This document shows positions 2,157-58,003 of a stretch of 64,000 nucleotides of DNA, in pieces (positions within the stretch are counted from its first letter, which is position 1; each line of letters starts with the position of its first letter). Location of the stretch: contig OY757017.1 in NCBI GenBank assembly GCA_963580285.1, positions 18,307,003-18,371,002 on the forward strand. The letters are read 5' to 3'. Source of the stretch: Lucinisca nassula (Eukaryota; Mollusca; Bivalvia; Lucinida; Lucinidae). Under the pieces are notes generated by a model. It was given only the letters and a program-made list of their open reading frames with translations, did not search any database and had not been told where the DNA came from. The position numbers and the translations under genes were made by a program.

Positions 2157-2972
2157 GTTGTTTGTTTGAATTTAGGGTTTACATCCCCGTCAACATTATT
2201 TAGGTCATTTAGAAGACGTTGCTTCTAATTTTAAGGGACATTTACTCGACATTGAGACGAAATGACATCTCATGCCCTACCATCCAAATAAAACAAAAGG
2301 GTTTATAAGCGGGGACTAACCGAGTTGCACCTTTTTGCCAGACTGTCTCTGGTCGGGCTCATCGGAGTCTAACTGTTGGTTTTCTTTTGCTCCAGCATTT
2401 CAGTGGTTTCTTGCTGTCGAGTCCTCACCGTTGTCTCACCTCTGTGGTTCTTTGATTTTTGTGTTCACGGGGATGTTGCACTGATGAGTTAGGAGGCCTT
2501 CATGCGGACTGAACAAATTATTTGTCTAAATCGCGACGAAAGTAAGGGCGAGGATTGTGGCCACGTAAAATCGATTTAAGCCCCCCAGTGGAAATCTTCC
2601 ACTGACCGTTCCAAGGCGGCTCTTCTGTGGCGATTTATTTATGTTGTTGTTTGTTACTTACTGTGTGTATCACTTGTGTCTTTTGGTTTTGGATGGCCAT
2701 ATGGCCATTTTGTGGGAAAGTAACTGTCCTTATGGCATTCCTTTGTTTAGGTTTCCATTATGGTCTGGTCGCTTAATGTTTGTATTTCTTTCCCTTTGGT
2801 GTCTTTTATGGGTGGAGTAAGTTAATTGTATCAATTCCTGATCTTTGTTTTACTTCTACTTAGAAGAACTTCTAAGCAATTTACCAGTACCCATTCGCGG
2901 TCGGTTTCAGCTCTGCGTGGTAGTATCACGCAGCCCAATCTATTTCTCCAAACTCCGATTGGCGGGGGCAAG
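2157..2972. repeat. SINE-like repeat B split by DR-A
   Basis: Opens GTTTGTTTGAATTTAGGGTT. The CAGCTCTGCGTGGTAG.ATCACGCAGCCC block is at 2,912. DR-A lies at 2,325-2,861. Confidence 0.6.
2325..2861 (+). repeat. DR-A copy, near full length, inside a SINE-like repeat
   Basis: Runs from the CTGTCTCTGGTCGGGC region through GCACTGATGAGTTAGGAGGC and ACCGTTCCAAGGCGG to the 3' end TTTTACTTCTACTT. The SINE-like family B continues on both sides (2,157-2,320 and 2,868-2,972). Confidence 0.75.
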
Positions 2973-14985: not shown

Positions 14986-15260
14986 CATCACGAAAACTCA
15001 TCTATATAAGTTTGTCACCCTTGAACCCCACTTTTATATAGTAAAGCAGGGGTTTACAGGGGTAAACCTTATTTTTCTTATTTATGCTCTAAAATATAGA
15101 TTGTGGGTACTCGTTAGAACCGCCTCGATGAGGCGGTTCTAACGAGTAATCTATATTTTGAGCAGAAATAAGAAAAAAATACAAAATTTTTCATCATAAA
15201 ATCTTCATTTTTTCGGCTAAAAAAACTAGTATATATTTGTATAGGCGTGTTTTCGTAATA
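14986..15260. mobile_element. Fold-back element (GTTAGAACCGCCTC family), complete
   Basis: CATCACGAAAAC to AGGCGTGTTTTCGTAAT; centre GTTAGAACCGCCTCGATGAG then GCGGTTCTAAC. Confidence 0.8.
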
Positions 15261-15907
15261 TGATGGGTTGTCATAATGCCAGGACAGGAGGCATGATAAC
15301 GATGATTTAGGAGTATATTTTCAATCTTCTGTTACTTAAACCTACACGGTGTGTACTCAATGAGGCGATATCAATGTGTACATACAACATATCTTCGAAG
15401 ATAAAATTAGACGATATAAGAATCTGATACATGATGTTCTATTATAGATGGGCTTCACCAACGTTCGGGATGACCGTGCTGTGTGGAACCGAGGCTTTGT
15501 CGAGGTTCCGCCCACCACGATCACCCCTGCGGGTTGGAAAGTCCCATTTACAACAAAAGCCCATAATAGATTTTTTTTCTCGCACAACACCACCGAAAAT
15601 TTACATTTTACTTTACTTTATTTGATGTTTTATTTTTCGCACACTTTATCTGAGTAGTTTGGCCGGGTAAGGACACTAGGGTAAGCGGCTGTAAGCAGTG
15701 TGGCGGCTGTAAAAGGTCTCCCCTACATACATTTAATGCTCTTATTTTTTCAATCCTCAGGGATTGCTTATGCAATTGCTTCTCACTGTTCCATCAATTG
15801 GCATCCTTTAGATACCTGTTGAAGGTCATTATTAAACCGATGTTCGTTCCTCGTTGTATAACAACTGCTTGTTTGACATCCCTGGACTTTAAGTAGACTA
15901 AGATGTT

Positions 15908-16912
15908 TTGTGGGCTTTTGTTGTACCGTCCTTCTATTCGAAAGAATTATCTTCAGTAATTTTATATGCTTTTTTATTTAATGACCGGTATGAAGATCAC
16001 TTTAGTTTTGACGGTATCATAACCTTAATAATCATAACCTTATTAACCCACATGAGTATCACAAATACATTTACAATATCAATATCACCCCTTAGGTTAC
16101 ACTCTGCTTCTTCAGTACGGATTCCCCATTCTATTAAGAAATTTAATACTATGTTGTCTTCGGTATTGGTTAGACCCTTAAGTTTGTCTTCTGTAACTTC
16201 AGTTAATCTCAATGAAGCAGGCAATACCAATGTTTTTGGGAGTAGTCTTCGTATAAGACTATCTCCTCTCAAATCGCCCATCCTTCGAAAATATACTAAT
16301 CCGTGGAAAAGAAGTGAAATGGATCCTAGTATTTCTAAGTGCAATGCCAAGAGGTGCAGATGTTGTTCGCATTTAAGCACTGCGTCTACCGTTACTTCAT
16401 CTGTAAACGGTAGACGCTTCTCTGTAGTTAACATGTCTGATTTGACATGACAGTCTACAGATTTAATTTATCTAATTACATGACGTGCTGCAAACTGTAA
16501 TATGCAGTACGTCGGTCAAACTAACAGCATGCTTAAAACTAGATTGAACGAGCATTATCGTAGAATGAGTAAAGTAGAAATAAAACAAAGATCAGGAATC
16601 GATACAATTAACTTACTCCACCCACCAAACCCTAAGAAAACTGACACTTTCTTGTACCGTCACTTTCGACGTACAGGTCATTCGGTAAATAACATTGTTA
16701 TACAACCAGTGGAAAAACTTTATTACGATGCAAATTCTACATCTAGATTCAAAATTATCAAAAGACATGAGGCTGAACTGAAATGGATTAAATCTTTACA
16801 GACCCCTTTTCCACTACGATTTAATGACAACATTTATCATGAGGGTAATATTTCCAGAATGCCGGAACGTAAATTACGTGCGTTTAAACGACACTATACT
16901 AGACTGAAGTGA
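15908..16912 (+). pseudogene. Naiad-like GIY-YIG endonuclease with in-frame TGA codons
   Basis: One frame runs through, interrupted by TGA at 16,448 and 16,481 and ended by TGA at 16,910. Cys-rich start (SKCNAKRCRCC), then the GIY-YIG strand region (DLIYLIT, TGA, RAANC, MQYVGQT), KTRLNEH, and a C-terminal part with YRHFRRTGHS and a basic KRHEAELKWIKSLQTPFP. Penelope endonucleases carry cysteines where both internal TGAs stand, and the published clam Naiads encode several selenocysteines. A 22-residue insertion (16,568-16,633) comes from an antisense DR-A tip. Either a selenoprotein-type copy now decaying or coincidental stops. Confidence 0.75.
16571..16629 (-). repeat. Antisense DR-A 3' tip inside the endonuclease frame
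   Basis: About 59 bp equal to the reverse complement of the DR-A 3' end. It adds 22 residues without closing the reading frame. Confidence 0.75.
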
Positions 16913-17632
16913 CTGTCAATTATATTATTAAATCATGGACGCCACTCTATGCTTTCATTTTTAAGTTCATTACCCGTTTCTGTTTAACGTCTTCTGGACA
17001 CCGAGGCGAATAAATTCTACGATAGTTCTAATCAGTTATATGATGCGGCTCTCTTAACTAGAGGCTATACTCAGCATACTCTCCGTCCTTACATTGATTC
17101 TTAAATTAATCATAAACACCATTTCTTCAAAATATCCTTCATTATAAGGGTATGGATTTTATAGATTTGCCCAGTATCTTCCGTGAGCTCGGTGCTTTCT
17201 TCCATTCCTGCTTATTTTTAAAATGCTGAAACACCTATAATTTGCTATAAATATAACAAACCTGTTAGATCTATCATTTTTAATTTCAATAAACTTGTTT
17301 CACATCTTGATATTGATACTAATACTCCTGATTCATGTGATTGTAAAAACTCAGTGTATTGCTATCCTGCTGCTGGTCATGTAACTGCTGGCAATTTGAA
17401 AATTATTCCTGATTCTAGGATAAGGAATATAATTTCTAAAGGACCGAAATATCGGTTTCCTTCTAAAATTGATTTCGGTAAATGTAGAGATGAAATCGCT
17501 GCTTCCCTGAATGAGTTCGGTAATCGATGGTGTAAGCGAGAGTATGTTGAGCATAAAGCCCTTAAGGACTGGAAACTTAGCTTTTTAAAACTAGTGAATC
17601 AACGCATTTCTTTCTATTCTCCAAAAAACTAA
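16913..17632 (+). pseudogene. Naiad-like CxC linker and RT N-terminal extension
   Basis: Mostly the same frame as the endonuclease, with TAA at 16,985, 17,102 and 17,219 and a short frame-1 segment at about 17,146-17,180. Readable blocks: KFYDSSNQLYDAALLTRGYT, GMDFIDLPSIF, ICYKYNKPVRSIIFNFNK, then SCDCKNS (the CxC motif at 17,336-17,344) and CYPAAGHVTAGNLKIIPDSR. This connects the endonuclease to the RT as in described Naiads. Confidence 0.72.
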
Positions 17633-17637
17633 CTTAT

Positions 17638-18063
17638 TACCTCCTAAGCCTAAGACGTCTTTACGTCATCTTAAACTAGGTATTCAAGAATTTCATAAGA
17701 AGTTTGTTTTGGCCCCTGCAGACAAGGCCGCTTACAACGTCGTCGTTGTGTGACGGCTCCACTATGTTAATACGCTTAAACAGGAGCTTGGTGGTACTAA
17801 GGCCTATGAACTTCAGCCTTTAGCTGAGGAGAGAGTTGTAGTAGATAAACATATTTATCATTCAGCCACCAAGTTTGCTGTGTGTGTTACCGAAAGCCAA
17901 GACAAGCTTCCTACGCTATACTGGTTACCAAAACTTCATAAAAGACCTTACAAAGCACGGTTTATTGCAAATTCTAGCTCTTGCACTACCACTGAACTTT
18001 CTAAATTATTAACTTCCTGTCTTACTGCTATTAAAACGCATGTGATTAAATATTGTGATAAAT
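17638..18063 (+). pseudogene. Naiad-like RT, fingers region, one in-frame TGA
   Basis: Frame-shifted by one base from the linker. It reads through ...EFHKKFVLAPADKAAYNVVV, TGA at 17,751, RLHYVNTLKQELGGT, and on to LPTLYWLPKLHKRPYKARFI, the Penelope/telomerase-type RT motif. The TGA again stands where family members are expected to have Cys (from memory of the family). It ends abruptly at the DR-A insertion. Confidence 0.72.
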
Positions 18064-18452
18064 GTTGCACTGATGAGTTAGGAGGCCTTCATGCGGACTG
18101 AACAAATTATTTGTCTAAATCGCGTCGGAAGTAAGGGCGAGGATTGTGGCCACGTAAAATCGATATAAGCCCCCCAGTGGAAATCTTCCACTGACCGTTC
18201 CAAGGCGGCTCTTCTGTGGCGATTTATTTATGTTGTTGTTTGTTACTTACTGTGTGTGTCACTTGTGTCTTTTGGTTTTGGATGGCCATATGGCCATTTT
18301 GTGGGAAAGTAACTGTCCTTATGGCCTTCCTTTGTTTAGGTTTCCATTATGGTCTGGTCGCTTAGTGTTTGTATTTCTTTCCCTTTGGTGTCTTTTATGG
18401 GTGGAGTAGGTTAAATGTATCAATTCCTGATCTTTGTTTTACTTCTACTTTG
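18064..18452 (+). repeat. DR-A copy inserted inside the Naiad RT
   Basis: Starts TGCACTGATGAGTTAGG, ends TTTTACTTCTACTTT. RT coding resumes immediately after it, so this is an insertion into the element. Confidence 0.8.
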
Positions 18453-18538
18453 AAAGATCAGGGAGAAATCTGTTTTGGTTTATAAAAAAATCGAATGAGG
18501 TTTTAAATAAATTGAAATCCAGACATTTTCGTGCTTCA
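18453..18538 (+). pseudogene. Continuation of Naiad RT after the insertion
   Basis: Translates as RSGRNLFWFIKKSNEVLNKL followed by KSRHFRAS. It continues the RT from 18,063 and then stops at an inverted DR-A tip. Confidence 0.65.
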
Positions 18539-18561: not shown

Positions 18562-19068
18562 CCATCGGAGTCTAACTGTTGGTTTTCTTTTGCTCCAGCA
18601 TTTAAGTGGTTTCTTGCTGTCGAGTCCTCACCGTTGTCTCACCTCCGTGGTTCTTTGATTATTTGTGTTCACGGAGATGTTGCACTGATGAGTTAGGAGG
18701 CCTTCATGCGGACTGAACAAAGTATTTGTCTAAATCGCGACGGAAGTAAGGGCGAGGATTATGGCCACGACAAATCAATTTAAGCCCCCCAGTGGAAATC
18801 TTTCCACTGACCGTTCCCAGGCGGTTCTTCTGTGGCGATTTATTTATGTTGTTGTTTGTTACTTACTGTGTGTATTACTTGTGTCTTTTTATTTTGGATG
18901 GCCATATGGCCATTTTGTGGGAAAGTAACTGTCCTTATGGCCTTCCTTTGTTTAGGTTTCCATTATGGTCTGGTCGCTTAATGTTTGTGTTTCTTTCCCT
19001 TTGGTGTCTTTGATGGGTGGGGTTAGTTAATTGTATCGATTCCTGATCTTTGTTTTACTTCTACTTTT
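18562..19068 (+). repeat. DR-A copy, near full length
   Basis: Starts ACCATCGGAGTCTAACTG, ends TTTACTTCTACTTTT. It directly follows the inverted tip at 18,538-18,561. Confidence 0.78.
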
Positions 19069-19221
19069 TATATCCCAGTCTAAAACAACGGATTTTCACA
19101 TCTGGTATGCAACAAAATTAATTCTTTTATAGAGATCGTGGAAAATTTATCCAGGGACTCAAGAACGAGTTCGAAATGATCATTGTAACCGAGAAATCAG
19201 TTTTTAGCTATCAGAGCGTAG

Positions 19222-19967: not shown

Positions 19968-20078
19968 CATTATGAAAACACGACTATACAAATACACTGT
20001 ACCTTTTTGCTACCGAAAAATGAAAATTGTAATATGAAAAAATTCTGATATTTTTCTTATTTTTAACGGGTACCCCCC
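19968..20078. mobile_element. Fold-back element, left arm only
   Basis: TTATGAAAACACGACTATAC through TTAACGGGTACC; the rest is replaced by a C-tract and a DR-A copy. Confidence 0.55.
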
Positions 20079-20344: not shown

Positions 20345-20455
20345 AATATGCAAAAGCTACACACATCCAAGTAATTGGATACTGTAATTTCTAGAACATT
20401 TAACAGTTTGTCAATTAACGAGCTCAACTAGAATTTGTTTTTCTACAAAAACACA

Positions 20456-23400
20456 GATGTCTCCCCCGTTTTTGACTGCTAAGTATAACCTTGACATTAG
20501 ATGTCTCCCCCGTTTTTGACTGCTAAGTATAACCTTGACATTAGATGTCTCCCCCGTTTTTGACTGCTAAGTATAACCTTGACATTGGAGGTATTGAGCT
20601 GTGTCTTGTGTGCTACACATCATCTAATGAAGATGAACATTTCTGCATAGTAACTTTAAAAATGTTCATAGAAAAATAAAAAAGTTATTGGCTGTAAACA
20701 AAAAAGCACTTTTTTACCTTTGACCTCTAAGTATGGCCTTGACCTTTGCGGTACAACACATCGTCTCATGATGGTTAACATTTTTGCCAAGTAATTTCAT
20801 AATCCATCAAAGAATAAGGAAGTTATTGACTGGCCTTTTTTAACCTTTGACCTCTAGGTATGACCTTGACATTGGAGGTAATGCTAACAAATAAATCAAA
20901 GGACAATAACTTTTGAAAGGGGCATAATGCGTATGAGAAAAAAATATGTGTCAGCTAATTTTCCATAGCGAATCCATATATGAAATTTCAAAACCCTAGC
21001 TTACACGGTTCTTAAGTTAATCTCGATGAAAAAAAATACGTATCAGCTTATTTTCCACCAGGAACGCATATACGAAATTTCAAAACCATAGCATACATGG
21101 TTCTAAAGTTATGGAATGCATCACTTTTAGCATACATTACAATAGACACAAATTACCAAAATGACAAAGGGCCATAACTCAAATTTTGTCAAAATTCAAT
21201 CAGGTCACCTACTCATCACCACCAATCTTTTCATCAACTTTCAAGACTCTAGCTATAATACTTTTTGAGATCTCTTGCTGACAAGATTTTATTAAAAAAA
21301 CTTCAAAAGGCAATAACTCTTGAAAGAGGCATAATCCGGATGAGAAAAAATACGCATCAGCTTATTTTCCATCAGGAATGCATATATGAAATTTCAAAAC
21401 AATAGCATATACAGTTCTAAAGTTATGTTATGCATCACTTTTAGCATACATTGGGCACAAATTACCTAAATGACAAAGGGCCATAACTCACAAAGTATTT
21501 TTCGGAATTTTGTCAAAAGTTAAGCAGGTCATCTACTCATCAACACCAATCTACGTGTATTCATCAACATTCAAGGCTGTAGCTATAATAGTTTTTGAGA
21601 TATTTTGCTGACAAGATTTTATTCAAAAAAACTTTAAAAGGGCAATAACTCTTGAAAGGGGCATAATCCGGATGAGAAAAAAATGCTTGTCAGCTAATTT
21701 TCCATCAGAAATGCATATATGAAAATTCAAAACCATAGCATACACGGTTCTAAAGTTATGCTATGCATCACTTTTAGCATATATTACAATGGGCACAAAT
21801 TACAAAAATGACAAAGGGCCATACCTCACAAAGTGTTTTTCGGAATTTTGTCAAAAGTTGATCAGTCCATCCACTCATCACCACCAATATGTTCACTAAC
21901 TTTCAAGGCTCTAGCTCCAATAGTTTTTGAGATATCTTGCTGACAAGATTTTATTTAAAAAAAATTCAAAGGGAAATAAATCTTAAAAGGGGCATAATCT
22001 GGATGAGAAAAAAAATACGCGTCAGCTTATTTTTCATTAGGAATGCATATATGAAATTTCAAAACCATAGCATACACTGTTCTAAAGTTATGCTATGCAT
22101 CATTTTTAGCATTCATTACAATGGGCACAAATTACCAAAATGACAAAGGGCCATAACTCGCAAAGTATTTTTCGGAATTTTGTAAAATGTTAATCAGTTC
22201 ATATACTCATCACAACCAATATACTCAACAACTTTCAAGGCTCTAAATCCAATAGTGTTTGAGATATTTTGCTGACAAGATTTTATTAAAAAAATTTCAA
22301 AGGGCAATAACTCTTGAAGGGGACATAATCCGGACGAGAAAAAAAATATACCTCAGCTAATTTTCCATGAGGAATCCATATATGAAATTTCAAAACACTA
22401 GCATACACGGTTCTAAAGTTATGCTATGCATCACTTTTAGCATACATTTCAATGGGCACAAAGTACCAAAATGACAAAGGGCCATAACTCACAAAGTATT
22501 TTTTCGGGATTTTGTCAAAAGTTAAAAACAGTTCTTCTACTCATCACCACCAATATATTCACCAACTTTCAAGGCTCTAGCTCCAATAGTTTTTGAGATA
22601 TCTTGCTGACAAGATTTTATTAAAAAAATTTCAAAGGGCAATAACTCTTCAAGGGGACATAATCCGGACGAGAAAAAAAAAATACGCATCTGCTAATTTT
22701 CCATGAGGAATCCATATATGAAATTTCAAAACCCTAGCAGACATGGTTCTTTAGTCATGCTATGCATCAAAAGTGTAAAGGATGGACAAACGGACGAACG
22801 AACCAGAACCAATATGCCCCTCAACTTTTTCAAAGTTGGGGGCATAATAAGAAAGTTATTGACAGAACACAAAAAGGCCCTTTTTTACCTTTAACCTCTA
22901 TGAATGACCTTGACCTCTCAGGTACCAAACTGGTTACTGCGTGCAACACATCATCTCATGGGGGTTAACATTTCTGCCTAGCAATTTCAAAATCCATCTA
23001 AAAATAAGAAACTCATTGACCAAACACGAAAAAAGGCCCCTTTTTTATCTTTGACCTCTAAGTATGACCTTGACCTTTGAGGTACCAACCTGGGTCATGC
23101 GTGCAACATATTGCCTTATATTGGTTAACATTTCTGCCAAGTGATTTCAAAATCCATCTCAAAATAAGAAAGTTATTGACCAAATACGAAAAAAGGCCCC
23201 CTTTTTGACCTTTGACCTCTAAGTATGACCTTGACCTTTGAGGTACCGACCTGCCTCATGTGCAACACACATTGTCTCATGGTTGTTAATAATTATGCCA
23301 AGTAATTTTAAAATCCATCTCAAAATTAGAAAGTTATTGACCAAATTCGAAAAAAGGCCCCTTTTTTGACATTTGACCTCTAAGTATGACCTTGACCTTT

Positions 23401-23870
23401 GAGGTACCGACCTGCCGCATGCGCACCACACATCGTCTTATGGTTGTTAATAATTATGCCAAGTAATTTTAAAATCCATCTCAAAAATAAAAAAGTTATT
23501 GACCAAATACGAAAAAAGGCCCCTTTTTGACCTTTGACCTCTAAGTATGACCTTGACCTTTGAGGTACCAACCTGCCTCATGCGCACCACACATCGTCTT
23601 ATGGTTTTTAATATTTCTGCAAAGTAATTTTAAAATCCATCAAAAAATAAGAAAGTTATTGACCGGACACGATTTGCCCATACATATATACATACCAACA
23701 AACTTCCAAGGGAGATAATTCAAAAAGTATAAATGCGAGAGTTATAGTTCTTGCACACTGCACGTCGTCTAATGCTGATTAATATTTATACGAAGTTTCG
23801 TGAAGATAGCTTTAACGGTTTTCAAGTTACAGAGCGGACACGAAAGTGTGACAGACAGACAGACGGACAG

Positions 23871-23908
<38 letters not shown>

Positions 23909-23971
23909 GGACAGACAGACGCCCGGGGGATAAACAATATGTCTCTCCGAAAAAAAAATTTTCGGGGGAGA
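20456..23971. mobile_element. Minisatellite element with ATGTCTCCCCC / GGGGGAGACAT ends
   Basis: Begins with a 44-bp unit (ATGTCTCCCCCGTTTTTGAC...) repeated three times at 20,458-20,590. Then about six units of about 332 bp (landmark GGCATAATCCGGATGAG) at 20,900-22,760, flanked on both sides by about 157-bp units (landmark AAGTATGACCTTGACCTTTG; five at 22,860-23,650). Then (ACAG/ACGG)n at 23,849-23,915 and a terminal hairpin TATGTCTCTCCG...GGGGGAGACATA. The two unit types are unrelated. No long reading frame. Confidence 0.65.
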
Positions 23972-27624: not shown

Positions 27625-27958
27625 ATATGGGCCCCGTCAAGCGATTTTGGTACTTATCGACTATGGGAGCAGCGAAGGTTCAGTTCGGTTTCCATTATGG
27701 TCTGGTCGCTTAATGTTTGTATTTCTTTCCCTTTGGTGTCTTTTATGGATGGAGTAAGTTAATTGTATCAATTCCTGATCTTTGTTTTACTTCTACTTTG
27801 CCAGAACCTTCGCTGCTCGCACATACAAGCAGTGAATCAAGAGGAACCTTCAGATAGAAAGCCATATCCCTGGCCCCCTCTGAATGGCTGGGCATGCGCA
27901 GTTAAAATTTGTCATGACGGAATGCTCGAAGACACAAATTCGCTTGGCGGGGCTCATA
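27625..27958. mobile_element. TIR element F with DR-A replacing its loop
   Basis: Inverted relative to the 26.8k copy. The segment between GCGAAGGTTCAG and GCCAGAACCTTCGC holds DR-A. Confidence 0.72.
27684..27799 (+). repeat. DR-A 3' fragment inside a TIR element
   Basis: Last 116 bp of DR-A. It replaces about 26 bp of the loop of the TIR element at 27,625-27,958. Confidence 0.75.
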
Positions 27959-46366: not shown

Positions 46367-46876
46367 CAAAACAGAAGTAGAGGCAATGATCAGGAATCGA
46401 GCCAATTAACCCAAAGCTCCCATCAGAGACACAAAAGGGAAAGAAACACAAACAGGAAGCAACAGACACCAACGGAAACACCAACAGCGGAAAGCCAAAA
46501 GGACAGTTACTTTCCGACAAAATGGCCAAAAGGCTATCCAAAATAAAATAATATAAGCGACACAAACACCCAAAGACAGACCATAACAAAAAATAAACCG
46601 CGACAGAAGAGCCACCTTGGAACGGTCAGCGGAAACGAATTCCACTGGGGGGGAGGCTTAAATCGATTTTACGTGGCCACAATCCTCGCCCTTACTTCCG
46701 TCGCGATTAAGACAAATAATTTGATCAGTAAGCATGACCACAGAGATGAAACAACGGTAAGGACTCGACAGCAACAAACAACAGAAATGCTGGAGCAAAA
46801 GAAAACCAACAGTTAGACTCCAATGGGCCCGACCAGAGACAGAGCATCAGGTACCAACCAACTACAGATTATTTTA
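46367..46876 (-). repeat. DR-A copy, near full length
   Basis: Minus orientation, second 3'-end subtype (AGAAGTAGAGGCAATGATC at 46,372). Abuts the next copy head to tail. Confidence 0.78.
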
Positions 46877-46877
46877 C

Positions 46878-47455
46878 AAAGTAGAAGTAAAACAAAGATC
46901 AGGAATCGATACAATTAACTTACTCCAACCACCAAAGACACCAAAGGGAAAGAAACACAAACATTAAGCGACCAGGCCATAATGGAAACCTAAACAAAGG
47001 AAGGCCATAAGGACAGTTACTTTCCCACAAAATGGCCATATGGCCATCAAAAATAAAAAGACACAAGTGATACACACAGTAAGTAACAAACAACAACATA
47101 AATAAATCGCCACAGAAGAACCGCCTTGGAACGGTCAGTGGAAAGATTTCCACCGGGGGGCTTAAATCGATTTTACGTGGCCACAATCCTCGCCCTTACT
47201 TCCGTCGTGATTTAGACAAATAATTTGTTCAGTCCACATGAAGGCCTCCTAACTCATCAGTGCAACATCTCCGTGAACACAAATAATCAAAGAACCACAG
47301 AGGTGAGACAACGGTGAGGACTCGACAGCAAGAAACCACTGAAATGCTGGAGCAAAACATAACCAACAGTTAGACTCCGATGGGCCCGACCAGAGACAGA
47401 GCATCAGGCACCAAGCAACATTACCTTGAATTAGATCTCTCCAATTCTCAATAAG
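46878..47455 (-). repeat. DR-A copy joined to Naiad RT (3' tail of the element)
   Basis: Full-length tail from TTGAGAATTGGAGAGATCTA to TTTTACTTCTACTTT in minus orientation, directly downstream of the RT copy at 47,456-48,490. This junction is the best evidence that DR-A is the Naiad 3' untranslated region. Confidence 0.78.
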
Positions 47456-48490
47456 CCTTTACGTTGGAACCGTCATAGAATCTAAGGCCTGACCCACCGG
47501 CGTGCAATTAAAGAGGGAAGCAAAGTTGCCAACCGTGATTGGGTTAACTACCATGCATGCAGTTTGTCGTATAACATCTATGTTGTACCCAATCTTTTTA
47601 TATCGAAGAATGATTTGACGATTGTGTGCTAAAGTCATTGCGGTTATATATTTTTCTTAATTTATATACTAAGTCACAATAAAATTCGGGTTCCGATAGA
47701 CCTTGTTGCAGTAGAGATTTAAGTCCAATATTGAATTTTGAAACTAGAGCTGTCAGTGAAACTGACTAGGGCCCCGGCAGTGCTATCAGAGGAGTAGGAA
47801 AATTTGTGGACGGACAGACGGACAGACGGACAGACAGACAGACGGACAGAGTGATTACTATAGGGCACCAACACTTTCAGTGCGGGGCCCTAATTAAATC
47901 AGAATGGCGTCTATAAAATTTTGAAAAGGCTTTGCGTAGTTTATGGTACCGATAACCCTGATTAAGAAGTTTAGCCGTTAATAATTTATTACGAATGCTG
48001 AAGTCACTTACATGACTACACACTCTAGCAAATCGAATAAATTGCGAAATATAAACGCCATAGGATGGCGTACGAGGAACATCACCATCCAAAAAAGGAA
48101 AATTTACAATCTCTAAATCAAAGTCATCGCGTTTATCATAAATTTTGCACGAAACAAACCCATCTACAATAGACAGATGTAAATCCAAAAACGGGGCCTC
48201 TGTATCAGAAGAATTTCTTTATTTAACTGAAGTTCTGGGGGGTAAATCTGACTGATCAAACCATCGAAATAGGTATTATCAATATTTAATAAATCATCTA
48301 AATATCTTGAAGTGCAGCTAAAAGCTTCAATAATTTCAGATTGGTTATCAATGGAAAGCGACAACATGAAGTCTCTTTCATAACAATACAAGAACAGATC
48401 AGCCACAAGAGGTGCGCAATTCGTACACATCAAACCTTGTAGACCCTGATCAGACTGATCTGCGACTACAATGTCCCAAATATGGAACAC
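47456..48490 (-). pseudogene. Naiad-like RT, C-terminal half with YLDD, frameshifted
   Basis: Minus-strand copy holding the part of RT that the 15.9k copy lacks. Readable blocks: NCAPLVADLFLYCYERDF; TSRYLDDLLNIDN with the catalytic YLDD; ELQLNK; after a frameshift near 48,190 DLHLSIVDGFVSCKIYDKRD, SYGVYISQFIRFARVCSHVS, LNQGYRYHKLRKAFSKFYRR; and further pieces down to NFASLFNC near 47,540. A 148-bp MITE-like insertion splits it at 47,744-47,891. It is followed directly (minus orientation) by a DR-A copy, which indicates that DR-A is the element's 3' untranslated tail. Confidence 0.78.
47744..47891. mobile_element. MITE-like insertion inside the Naiad RT
   Basis: Starts CTAGAGCTGTCAGT, ends GGGGCCCTAA, with inverted AGGGCCCC/GGGGCCCT near the ends and an internal (GGACAGAC)n microsatellite. 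The homologous Naiad copy at 51.0k reads straight through this point. Confidence 0.65.
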
Positions 48491-49467: not shown

Positions 49468-49854
49468 CTGAAAAGCATGCAAATGAAATAGCATCCTGGG
49501 TCATGAAATCAGTATATAATATCGAATCTGCGAACAATACAAGAAATCTATATGTGAATTAGAATATGGGTGCGCTTTACAAAACTTTAAGTGCAAATAA
49601 CCATCCAAATATGATAGGTTGGTTTACAAGTCTAATGACTTGCTTGTTGAAAAACTGTATTGCAAGAATTTACATTTCCATTGCTACCATTTATTTGGAA
49701 ACTTGCATTTCTATTTGTGCTAATGTTCCTGCCGAACTAAAGTAGGGTAACCAGATTAATCATTATTGATTTGCGCGATTAACCTGCACTTAACTCTACC
49801 CAACGTGTCTCTCGGTAATTTAGTATTCATGTGCTTAATTGTACTTTTTCAAAT

Positions 49855-50054
49855 GTAAATAGAAGTGAAGGCAGTGATCAGGAATCGATACAATTAACCC
49901 ACAGCTCCGATCAGAGACACCAAAGTGAAAGAAACACAAACAAGAAATAACAGACCCTAATGGAAACATCAATAGCGGAAAGCCAAAAGGACAGTTACTT
50001 TCCCACAGAATGGCAAATTGGCTATCCAAAACAAAGTAATAAAAGCGATACAAA
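49855..50054 (-). repeat. DR-A copy, 5' truncated
   Basis: First of three minus-oriented copies in a row. Only about 200 bp of the 3' end is present. Confidence 0.75.
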
Positions 50055-50611
50055 ATAGAAGTGGAGGCAATAATCAGAAATCGATACAAGTAACCCACAG
50101 CTCCCATCAGAGACAACAAAGGGAAAGAAACACAAACACAAAACAACAGGCGGAAAGCCAAAAGGAAAGTTTATTTCCCACAAAATGGCCAACAGGCTAT
50201 CCAAAATAAAATAATATAAGCGACACAAACATCCAAAGACAAACCATAACAAAACTAAACCGCGACAGAACAACCGCCTTGGTACGGTCAGCGGAAACGA
50301 ATTCCACTGGGGGGGGGGGGGGCTTTTATCGTTTTTACGTGGCCACAATCTTCGCCCTTACTTCCGTCGCGATTGAGAAAAATAATTTGTTCAGTCCGCA
50401 TTAAGTCCTAACTCATCAGTGCAACATCTCCGTGAACACAAAAATCAATTTACCACAATGATGAAGCAACGGTGAGGACTCGACTGCAAGAAACCAATGA
50501 AAAGCTGGAACAAAAGAAAACCAATAGTTAGACTCCGGTGCGCCCGACCAGGGACAGAGCATCAGACACCAACTAACATTACATAGAATTAGATTCTTTC
50601 TAATTCTCAGT
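50055..50611 (-). repeat. DR-A copy, near full length
   Basis: Second of the head-to-tail series. Contains a G/C homopolymer at 50,309-50,322. Confidence 0.77.
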
Positions 50612-50897
50612 AAAACAGAAGTGAAGACAATGATCAGGAATCGATACAATTAACCCACAGCTCCCATCAGAGACACCAAAGGGAAAGAAACATAAACATG
50701 AAACAACAGACCCTAATGGAAACATCAATAGCGGAAAGCCAAAAGGACAGATACTTTCCCACAAAATGGCCAATAGGCTATTCAAAATATAATAATATAA
50801 GCGACACAAACATCCAAAAACAAACCATACCAAAAATAAACCGCAACAGAAGAACCGCCTTGGAATGGTCAGCGGAAACAAATTCCACCGGGGGGCT
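50612..50897 (-). repeat. DR-A copy joined to a Naiad RT remnant
   Basis: Third of the series. Its 5' side meets the RT remnant at 50,898. Confidence 0.75.
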
Positions 50898-51103
50898 TTG
50901 ACGCCGGACCGTCATAGAATCTGAGCCCTGACCCACCGTCGTGCAATTAAAGAGGGAAGCAAAGTTGTCAACCAGAAGAGATTTAAGTCCAATGTAGAAT
51001 TTTGAAATTAAATCAGCATGCCGTCTATAAAATTTTGAAAAGGCTTTGCGTAGTTTATGGCACCGATAACCCTGATTAAGAAGTTTAGCAGTTAACAATT
51101 CGT
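50898..51103 (-). pseudogene. Naiad-like RT C-terminal fragment
   Basis: Reads LLTAKLLNQGYRCHKLRKAF, then SKFYRRHADLISKF, GLKSLL and, after an internal deletion, NFASLFNCTTVGQGSDSMTV. It is joined in minus orientation to DR-A at 50,612-50,897. Confidence 0.7.
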
Positions 51104-54851: not shown

Positions 54852-55348
54852 AAAATAGAAGTGAAGGCAATGATCAGGAATCGATACAATTAACACACAG
54901 CTCCCATCAGAGACATCAAAGGGAAAGAAACACAAACATGAAATAATAGACCCTAATGGAAGCCAAAAGACCCTAGCGGAAAGCCAAAAGAACAGTCACT
55001 TTCCCACAAAATGGCCAATTGGCTATCCAAAATAAAAATTTAAGCGATATATACACTCAAAGACAAACATAACAAAAATAATCTGCGACAGAAGAACCAC
55101 CTTGGAACGGTCAGTGAAACGAATTACACTGGGGATTTAAATCGATTTTACGCTGCCGCAATCATCGCCCTTACTTCCGTCGCGATTTAGACAAATACTT
55201 TGTTCAATCCGCATGAAGGCCTCCTCACGCATCAGTGCAACACCCGAGAACACAAAAATCAAACAAACACAGAGATGAAACAACGGTGAGTACTCGACAT
55301 CAAGAAACCACTGAAATGCTGGAGCAAAATAAAACCAACAGTTAGACC
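54852..55348 (-). repeat. DR-A copy, near full length
   Basis: Minus orientation; next to an (AC)n tract on one side and a fold-back element on the other. Confidence 0.75.
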
Positions 55349-57924: not shown

Positions 57925-58003
57925 CCAACCCTGGCTGGTATCGAACCCGCATCCTCCTGATCACCAGTCAGATGCGCATCCTACAGAGCTGCTAAGGCCG
58001 GCC
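57925..58003 (-). repeat. tRNA-related SINE head
   Basis: The minus strand reads TTAGCAGCTCTGTAGGATGC then a good B box GGTTCGATACC (57,937-57,947), like a tRNA-derived Pol III promoter. No acceptor-stem pairing typical of a working tRNA. Confidence 0.5.

Follow-up and report, generated by a model that had tools for sequence, protein, structure and literature searches.

The window (the whole stretch of DNA analyzed, 64,000 nucleotides) carries a Naiad-like Penelope retrotransposon in a decayed state, and comparison with its kin indicates, with a probability of roughly 0.88, that the family reads four in-frame UGA codons as selenocysteine (Sec). The TGAs are shared with sister copies and stand mostly at cysteine columns, a SECIS-like hairpin lies at the end of the open reading frame (ORF) of sister copies, and the genome encodes tRNA-Sec. 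Given these observations, the family appears to encode a selenoprotein, and the window copy to be one of its dead members. This agrees with the original prediction, by which the copy descends from a Naiad that encoded selenocysteine and decayed afterwards; the insertion of Sec is what we infer from the shared TGAs, the columns of relatives, the hairpin, and the tRNA. The alternation of an in-frame UGA with Cys, by which eukaryotic selenoproteins are recognized, is observed at codons 167 and 598, in the element's own genome as well as in relatives.

In-frame TGA codons and decay of the window copy

The TGAs that had been reported at 16,448, 16,481, and 17,751, with a fourth at 16,910, are all present, and each lies in the frame that carries coding similarity. 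The first two stand in the context DLT-TGA-QSTDLIYLIT-TGA-RAANCNMQYVGQT, the third in TRLK-TGA-LSII, and the fourth in NVVVV-TGA-RLHY. TGAs apart, the frame is open from 5' of the family ATG (16,052), the codon at which 16 listed relatives begin, to 16,985, and it reads as a GIY-YIG-like endonuclease. The endonuclease is followed by frame changes, the CxC linker, and the beginning of the reverse transcriptase (RT). The TAA stops had been held to fall at non-Cys positions, and indeed sister copies have Leu at the column of 16,985 and Glu at that of 17,102. Pfam searches of pieces of the window and a PDB sequence search with the RT piece returned nothing useful, and Rfam gave no SECIS match in the tail of the window copy. 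The features are collected in Table 1.

Table 1 Features of the window copy, with the SECIS-like region of a separate fragment (positions in the window)
Feature	Positions	Strand	Basis
5' part: upstream sequence and protein N-terminus, with family ATG at 16,052	15695..16572	+	blastn to sister copy L027, 93.9%
TGA 1, family codon 156, directly 5' of GIY-YIG-like region	16448..16450	+	TGA in 19/19 stretches
TGA 2, family codon 167, first Cys of pair around GIY/YIG region	16481..16483	+	TGA 16, TGT 2, TGG 1 of 19 stretches
TGT, partner Cys, family codon 172	16496..16498	+	Codon tally, alignment to L027
Antisense piece of the element's own tail, inserted in endonuclease	16573..16627 (edges approximate)	-	Repeat search, L027 alignment
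About 77 bases of L027 missing	16866..16866 (site)	+	Alignment to L027
TGA 3, family codon 317, linker; mostly Asp in relatives	16910..16912	+	TGA in 21/22 stretches, other GGA
TAA at Leu column, decay	16985..16987	+	Comparison with sister copies
TAA at Glu column, decay	17102..17104	+	Comparison with sister copies
CxC motif, both Cys TGT; first TGA-like in some related families	17336..17344	+	Codon tally, L027, relatives
N-terminal part of RT, cut at 18,062 by tail sequence	17622..18062	+	tblastn, codons 555-701, 92%
TGA 4, family codon 598, after NVVVV	17751..17753	+	TGA 24, TGT 1 of 25 stretches
3' tail fragment, no SECIS match	18062..18463	+	blastn 95.5%; Rfam
Further RT scrap, codons 703-732	18449..18538	+	L027 comparison
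3' tail, second copy	18563..19074	+	Repeat search, L027 comparison
SECIS-like region of another, separate Naiad fragment	47370..47512	-	Sequence comparison

The TGA columns in sister copies and relatives

A DNA search of the element's own genome assembly (2.93 Gb) with window positions 16,400 to 18,200 scored 40 candidates and yielded 98 matched stretches, of which the long ones are 96 to 97% identical. Codons were tallied in 20 own-genome loci, fetched for their similarity, together with the window; the counts refer to aligned stretches, which are not independent copies, and gapped codons were skipped. TGA predominates in each of the four columns (Table 1). All other columns taken together hold 73 stops in 23,348 codons (0.3%; 19 TGA, 39 TAA, and 15 TAG), and among those with at least 5 stretches none exceeds 15% for any stop. 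Two sister loci, L021 and L027, contain 1,097-codon frames in which TGA is the only stop type, occurring four times in L021 and three times in L027, where codon 167 is TGT. This tally and the protein searches of the genome thus recovered other copies with the same TGAs, which are not private to the window copy.

The protein searches of the genome score the best candidates only, which favors intact copies. Within that scope, codons 51 to 315 met two TGAs in 138 of 144 matches and one in the other 6, a relative covering codons ~174 to 459 (P0031) met one TGA in 136 of 136, and another covering codons ~274 to 950 (P0253) met two in 64 of 64. The placement of these TGAs was read from frame lengths, the commonest of which (316, 430, and 930) are the distances expected for TGAs at codons 167, 317, and 598. 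The distal RT (codons 599 to 1097), used as a control, was stop-free in all 86 of its best-candidate matches, and each had a 499-codon frame, which places a stop directly 5' of codon 599.

Both between the UGAs and 3' of them, the sequence changes in the manner of protein-coding DNA, as judged from pN/pS values that include post-insertion drift. Relative to L027 these are 0.51 (codons 24 to 155), 0.43 (168 to 316), 0.61 (318 to 597), and 0.44 (599 to 1097), totals that omit L021, L027, and segments shorter than 100 codons. The family is numerous and its expansion apparently recent: many of the P0031 matches have an identical score, and some matches lie head to tail, spaced 4,151 or 4,163 bp, which together look like the outcome of a recent expansion.

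Relatives in other assemblies were collected by three protein searches (the best 120 of 208, of 4,564, and of 597 hits), and the alignments comprised 37 of 329 proteins plus one locus (A2) and 29 proteins plus one locus (A3). Among the 120 listed endonuclease matches, codon 156 is W in 33, C in 1, G in 1, and a gap in 2 of the 37 that cover it, and codon 167 is W in 31, C in 3, G in 1, and a gap in 1 of 36; in 30 listed relatives both are W. For codon 598, the 120 listed relatives give C 85, W 30, R 2, S 1, Y 1, and one that does not cover the column. The first Cys of the linker, codon 460, is C in 45, W in 20, R in 3, S in 2, L in 1, and a gap in 1 of the 72 further relatives that cover it. 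Codon 317 behaves differently, with D 55, C 3, N 2, V 1, and two gaps in the 63 listed relatives that cover it, and Asp in 48 and Cys in 2 of 78 in the further set. Another reference sequence shifts the counts slightly (C 4 instead of 3 at codon 167; D 52 and C 4 instead of 55 and 3 at codon 317).

The W residues, seen in protein records, are presumably TGA translated with table 4. Columns with W in at least 3 of the first 240 matches and none in the window copy's family are 156, 167, 460, 598, and 710. The last of these (W in 21 relatives) was considered as an additional TGA column and rejected, since the examples, found in proteins that have Cys at 598, look like ordinary Trp. Protein ends cluster at the same places. 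Exactly before codon 598, 48 of the 89 further relatives end (identity 47 to 72%, median 55%); Cys occupies codon 460 in 44 of these 48. The same set has 16 proteins whose end falls before 460 and 26 that begin at codon 174, where the first Met downstream of 167 stands. Of the first 240 matches, 15 stop short of codon 156, their last residue being the one after codon 154, and in 24 the protein terminates immediately ahead of codon 460.

The presence of W, Cys, or protein ends at the same columns indicates an exchange between Cys and an apparent UGA at 167, 460, and 598, which is rare at 156. Relatives thus bear out three of the four TGA columns. The expectation that the TGAs at 16,448, 16,481, and 17,751 replace family cysteines holds for 167 and 598, whereas 156 is rarely Cys. 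The TGA at codon 317 matches the others in conservation within the own-genome family, yet it does not stand at a Cys column; since relatives mostly have Asp there, Sec at this site looks like a gain of the window copy's family, as far as the sequences tell.

In one relative of 457 residues (P0074), ~330 residues with a cysteine-rich stretch, which we take to be PHD-finger-like, precede a Naiad N-terminus whose end falls before codon 156. This protein is perhaps a fusion or a case of nested elements.

The SECIS-like hairpin and the host tRNA-Sec

The DR-A 3' tail had been named as the place to search for a SECIS. Sister copies do contain a candidate hairpin, although it spans the stop codon instead of lying in that repeated tail, and the window copy no longer has the region concerned. 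Rfam returned seven matches in L021 and L027, and SECIS_1 accounts for the best five, four of them at ORF ends (25.1 bits against a gathering score of 35; E 0.44 for 18 kb and all families) and one in a divergent element of L021 (21.9 bits, E 3.4). The aligned hairpins read AUGAC, a 12-nt arm, AAA, and CUGAU, so that core, spacing, and apical AA are present. The ORF ends ATG ACG GCT CCA ACG TAA; the 5' core is therefore coding (Met-Thr), the apical AA lies inside the UAA stop, and the 3' arm is untranslated.

Among 33 near-complete copies, 30 retain the 5' motif together with its AA and 32 retain the 3' motif. For the structural comparison, 17 of these 33 were aligned (A1), near-identical copies and an A-to-G-rich copy at L028 being left out. 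RNAalifold, supplied with no structure, found the same helices, and 93.1% of cells pair in the structure as given, compared with 29 to 47% when it is slid. Of 29 pairs, 2 change on both sides, and one pair is U-G in 8, C-G in 5, and U-A in 3 copies; slid-column controls gave 0 to 5 such double changes and were not exceeded, so the support comes from motif, position, and pairing. In four loci a SECIS pattern scan hit each element once (L021 and L027 containing two elements apiece), against 0.18 hits per shuffled 9-kb strand; the scan lends weak support because the pattern was written after the hairpin had been seen.

The L028 copy differs from L016 at the element's 3' end (~2672 to 2814, minus strand) by 37 A-to-G and 4 G-to-A changes, the excess falling in two neighboring 300-base bins that cover the hairpin region. 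The pattern is as if its RNA had been ADAR-edited before insertion.

Two loci of the genome match tRNA-Sec strongly, at 80 and 77.4 bits (the cut-off being 47), and both have the anticodon TCA. The cut-off is also passed by seven lower-scoring matches, two of which read as tRNA-Ser. A tRNA-like Rfam match inside the window, at 57,926 to 57,990, was not called by ARAGORN and was set aside.

These observations bear on what the TGAs are. The window copy is otherwise broken, with TAA stops, frameshifts, and a cut RT, and its TGAs might be mutations of a dead copy that stand at Cys-like places by chance. Sister copies, however, have the same TGAs in the same columns while other columns hold 0.3% stops, and random decay is rejected on that ground, with practically no probability left to it. 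Ordinary stop-codon readthrough, or decoding of the UGAs as some other amino acid, is very unlikely too. Such a reading could draw on the hairpin's falling short of the Rfam gathering score and on Sec being a residue that we infer, but some stretches of the family have Cys instead of TGA at codon 167 or 598, 85 of the 120 listed relatives have Cys at 598, and both a SECIS core motif at the ORF end and a tRNA-Sec in the genome speak for Sec.

Another possibility is that UGA copies make short endonuclease pieces only and spread as passengers of another element's machinery or are copied as DNA arrays; relatives with Cys at codon 598 are present in other assemblies, and head-to-tail arrays occur. 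The frame beyond the last TGA is nevertheless stop-free in every distal RT match, albeit among matches selected for similarity, and its pN/pS of 0.44, drift included, likewise argues against passengers; we regard this as very unlikely.

If the UGAs encode Sec, the host Sec machinery would use the ORF-end hairpin for insertion at all four, and the resulting full protein would mobilize the element. The frame is otherwise open to the terminal TAA, and the UGAs are common to many near-identical copies. In the window copy the distal RT and the hairpin later disappeared, tail fragments, frameshifts, and TAA stops accumulated, and the copy is dead.

A partly translated SECIS would be unusual. According to one review (PMC8310308; see also PMC6769590), the fowlpox SECIS lies in coding sequence and all cellular counterparts lie in the 3' UTR, for which reason a stop-straddling SECIS would stand apart. 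The fowlpox GPx4 gene resembles the present family in that its SECIS overlaps translated sequence and related forms swap Sec and Cys, as the same sources describe (PMC6769590, PMC8310308); here, in contrast, the carrier is a retrotransposon with several UGAs and a hairpin that spans the stop codon. We lean slightly toward a working SECIS that straddles the ORF end, such that termination and Sec recoding share nucleotides, in a family that also gained Sec at a mostly-Asp column. If so, the SECIS would be melted by any ribosome that arrives at the stop, and output of the full-length protein could be paced or limited in this way; a SECIS whose apical AA belongs to a stop codon would bear on where SECIS elements can work.

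The family would represent a numerous, apparently recent group of selenoprotein-coding retrotransposons. At the columns in question its relatives show Cys or a TGA-like W, or their proteins end there, and the dependence of a mobile element on selenium thereby becomes testable by comparison. It is also a warning that gene callers cut such proteins at UGA.

Element identity and other sequence in the window

Judged by its sequence, the window copy is a broken Naiad-like Penelope element. Naiads have an N-terminal GIY-YIG endonuclease, a downstream Penelope-type RT with IFD, a linker CxC, tandem copies with pseudo-LTRs, and no canonical hammerhead ribozyme. In the present family the N-terminal GIY-YIG endonuclease, the CxC linker, and the RT follow one another in one frame of ~1,074 codons. 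The RT lies downstream of the endonuclease, with Pfam RVT_1 at E 0.1, below the cut-off, and the structure model of the whole protein is poor (pLDDT 52). The CxC cysteines are codons 460 and 462, at 17,336 and 17,342 of the window. Tandem copies occur at the two spacings given above, and the L027 tail is repeated 5' and 3' of the ORF. No hammerhead ribozyme was found among Rfam matches up to E 10 in L021 and L027, an absence at that sensitivity.

Naiads reportedly encode selenoproteins in clams and spiders (Craig et al. 2021, Mol Biol Evol 38:5005), and are said to combine an N-terminal GIY-YIG, a CxC linker, a C-terminal RT, and pseudo-LTRs, with several Sec in clams. By this description they resemble the window copy's family in general layout. 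Selenoprotein-coding Naiads in clams having already been reported, the less expected details are the stop-straddling SECIS and the codon-317 site. Canonical Penelope/Poseidon elements with a C-terminal endonuclease share with this family an RT and a GIY-YIG in one ORF and tandem pseudo-LTR copies, according to the published description (PMC11167929); they differ in that the domain order is reversed in the window copy's family, for which two sister loci gave no hammerhead match.

Further Naiad fragments lie on the minus strand at 46,367 to 48,431 and 49,853 to 51,101. The one with the complete SECIS-like region (Table 1) also contains distal RT at 47,462 to 48,430. Scattered tail (pseudo-LTR) fragments, 75 to 99% identical to L027, include 2,343 to 2,861, 27,684 to 27,801, and 54,852 to 55,347. 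Direct-repeat arrays with ~332-bp and 161-bp units, followed by a GACA/GACG run, occupy 20,455 to 23,930. A near-perfect short hairpin is found at 15,103 to 15,153 (ACTCGTTAGAACCGCCTC / GAGGCGGTTCTAACGAGT), and near it are longer inverted arms at 15,166 to 15,259 and 19,969 to 20,062, possibly a MITE-like piece.
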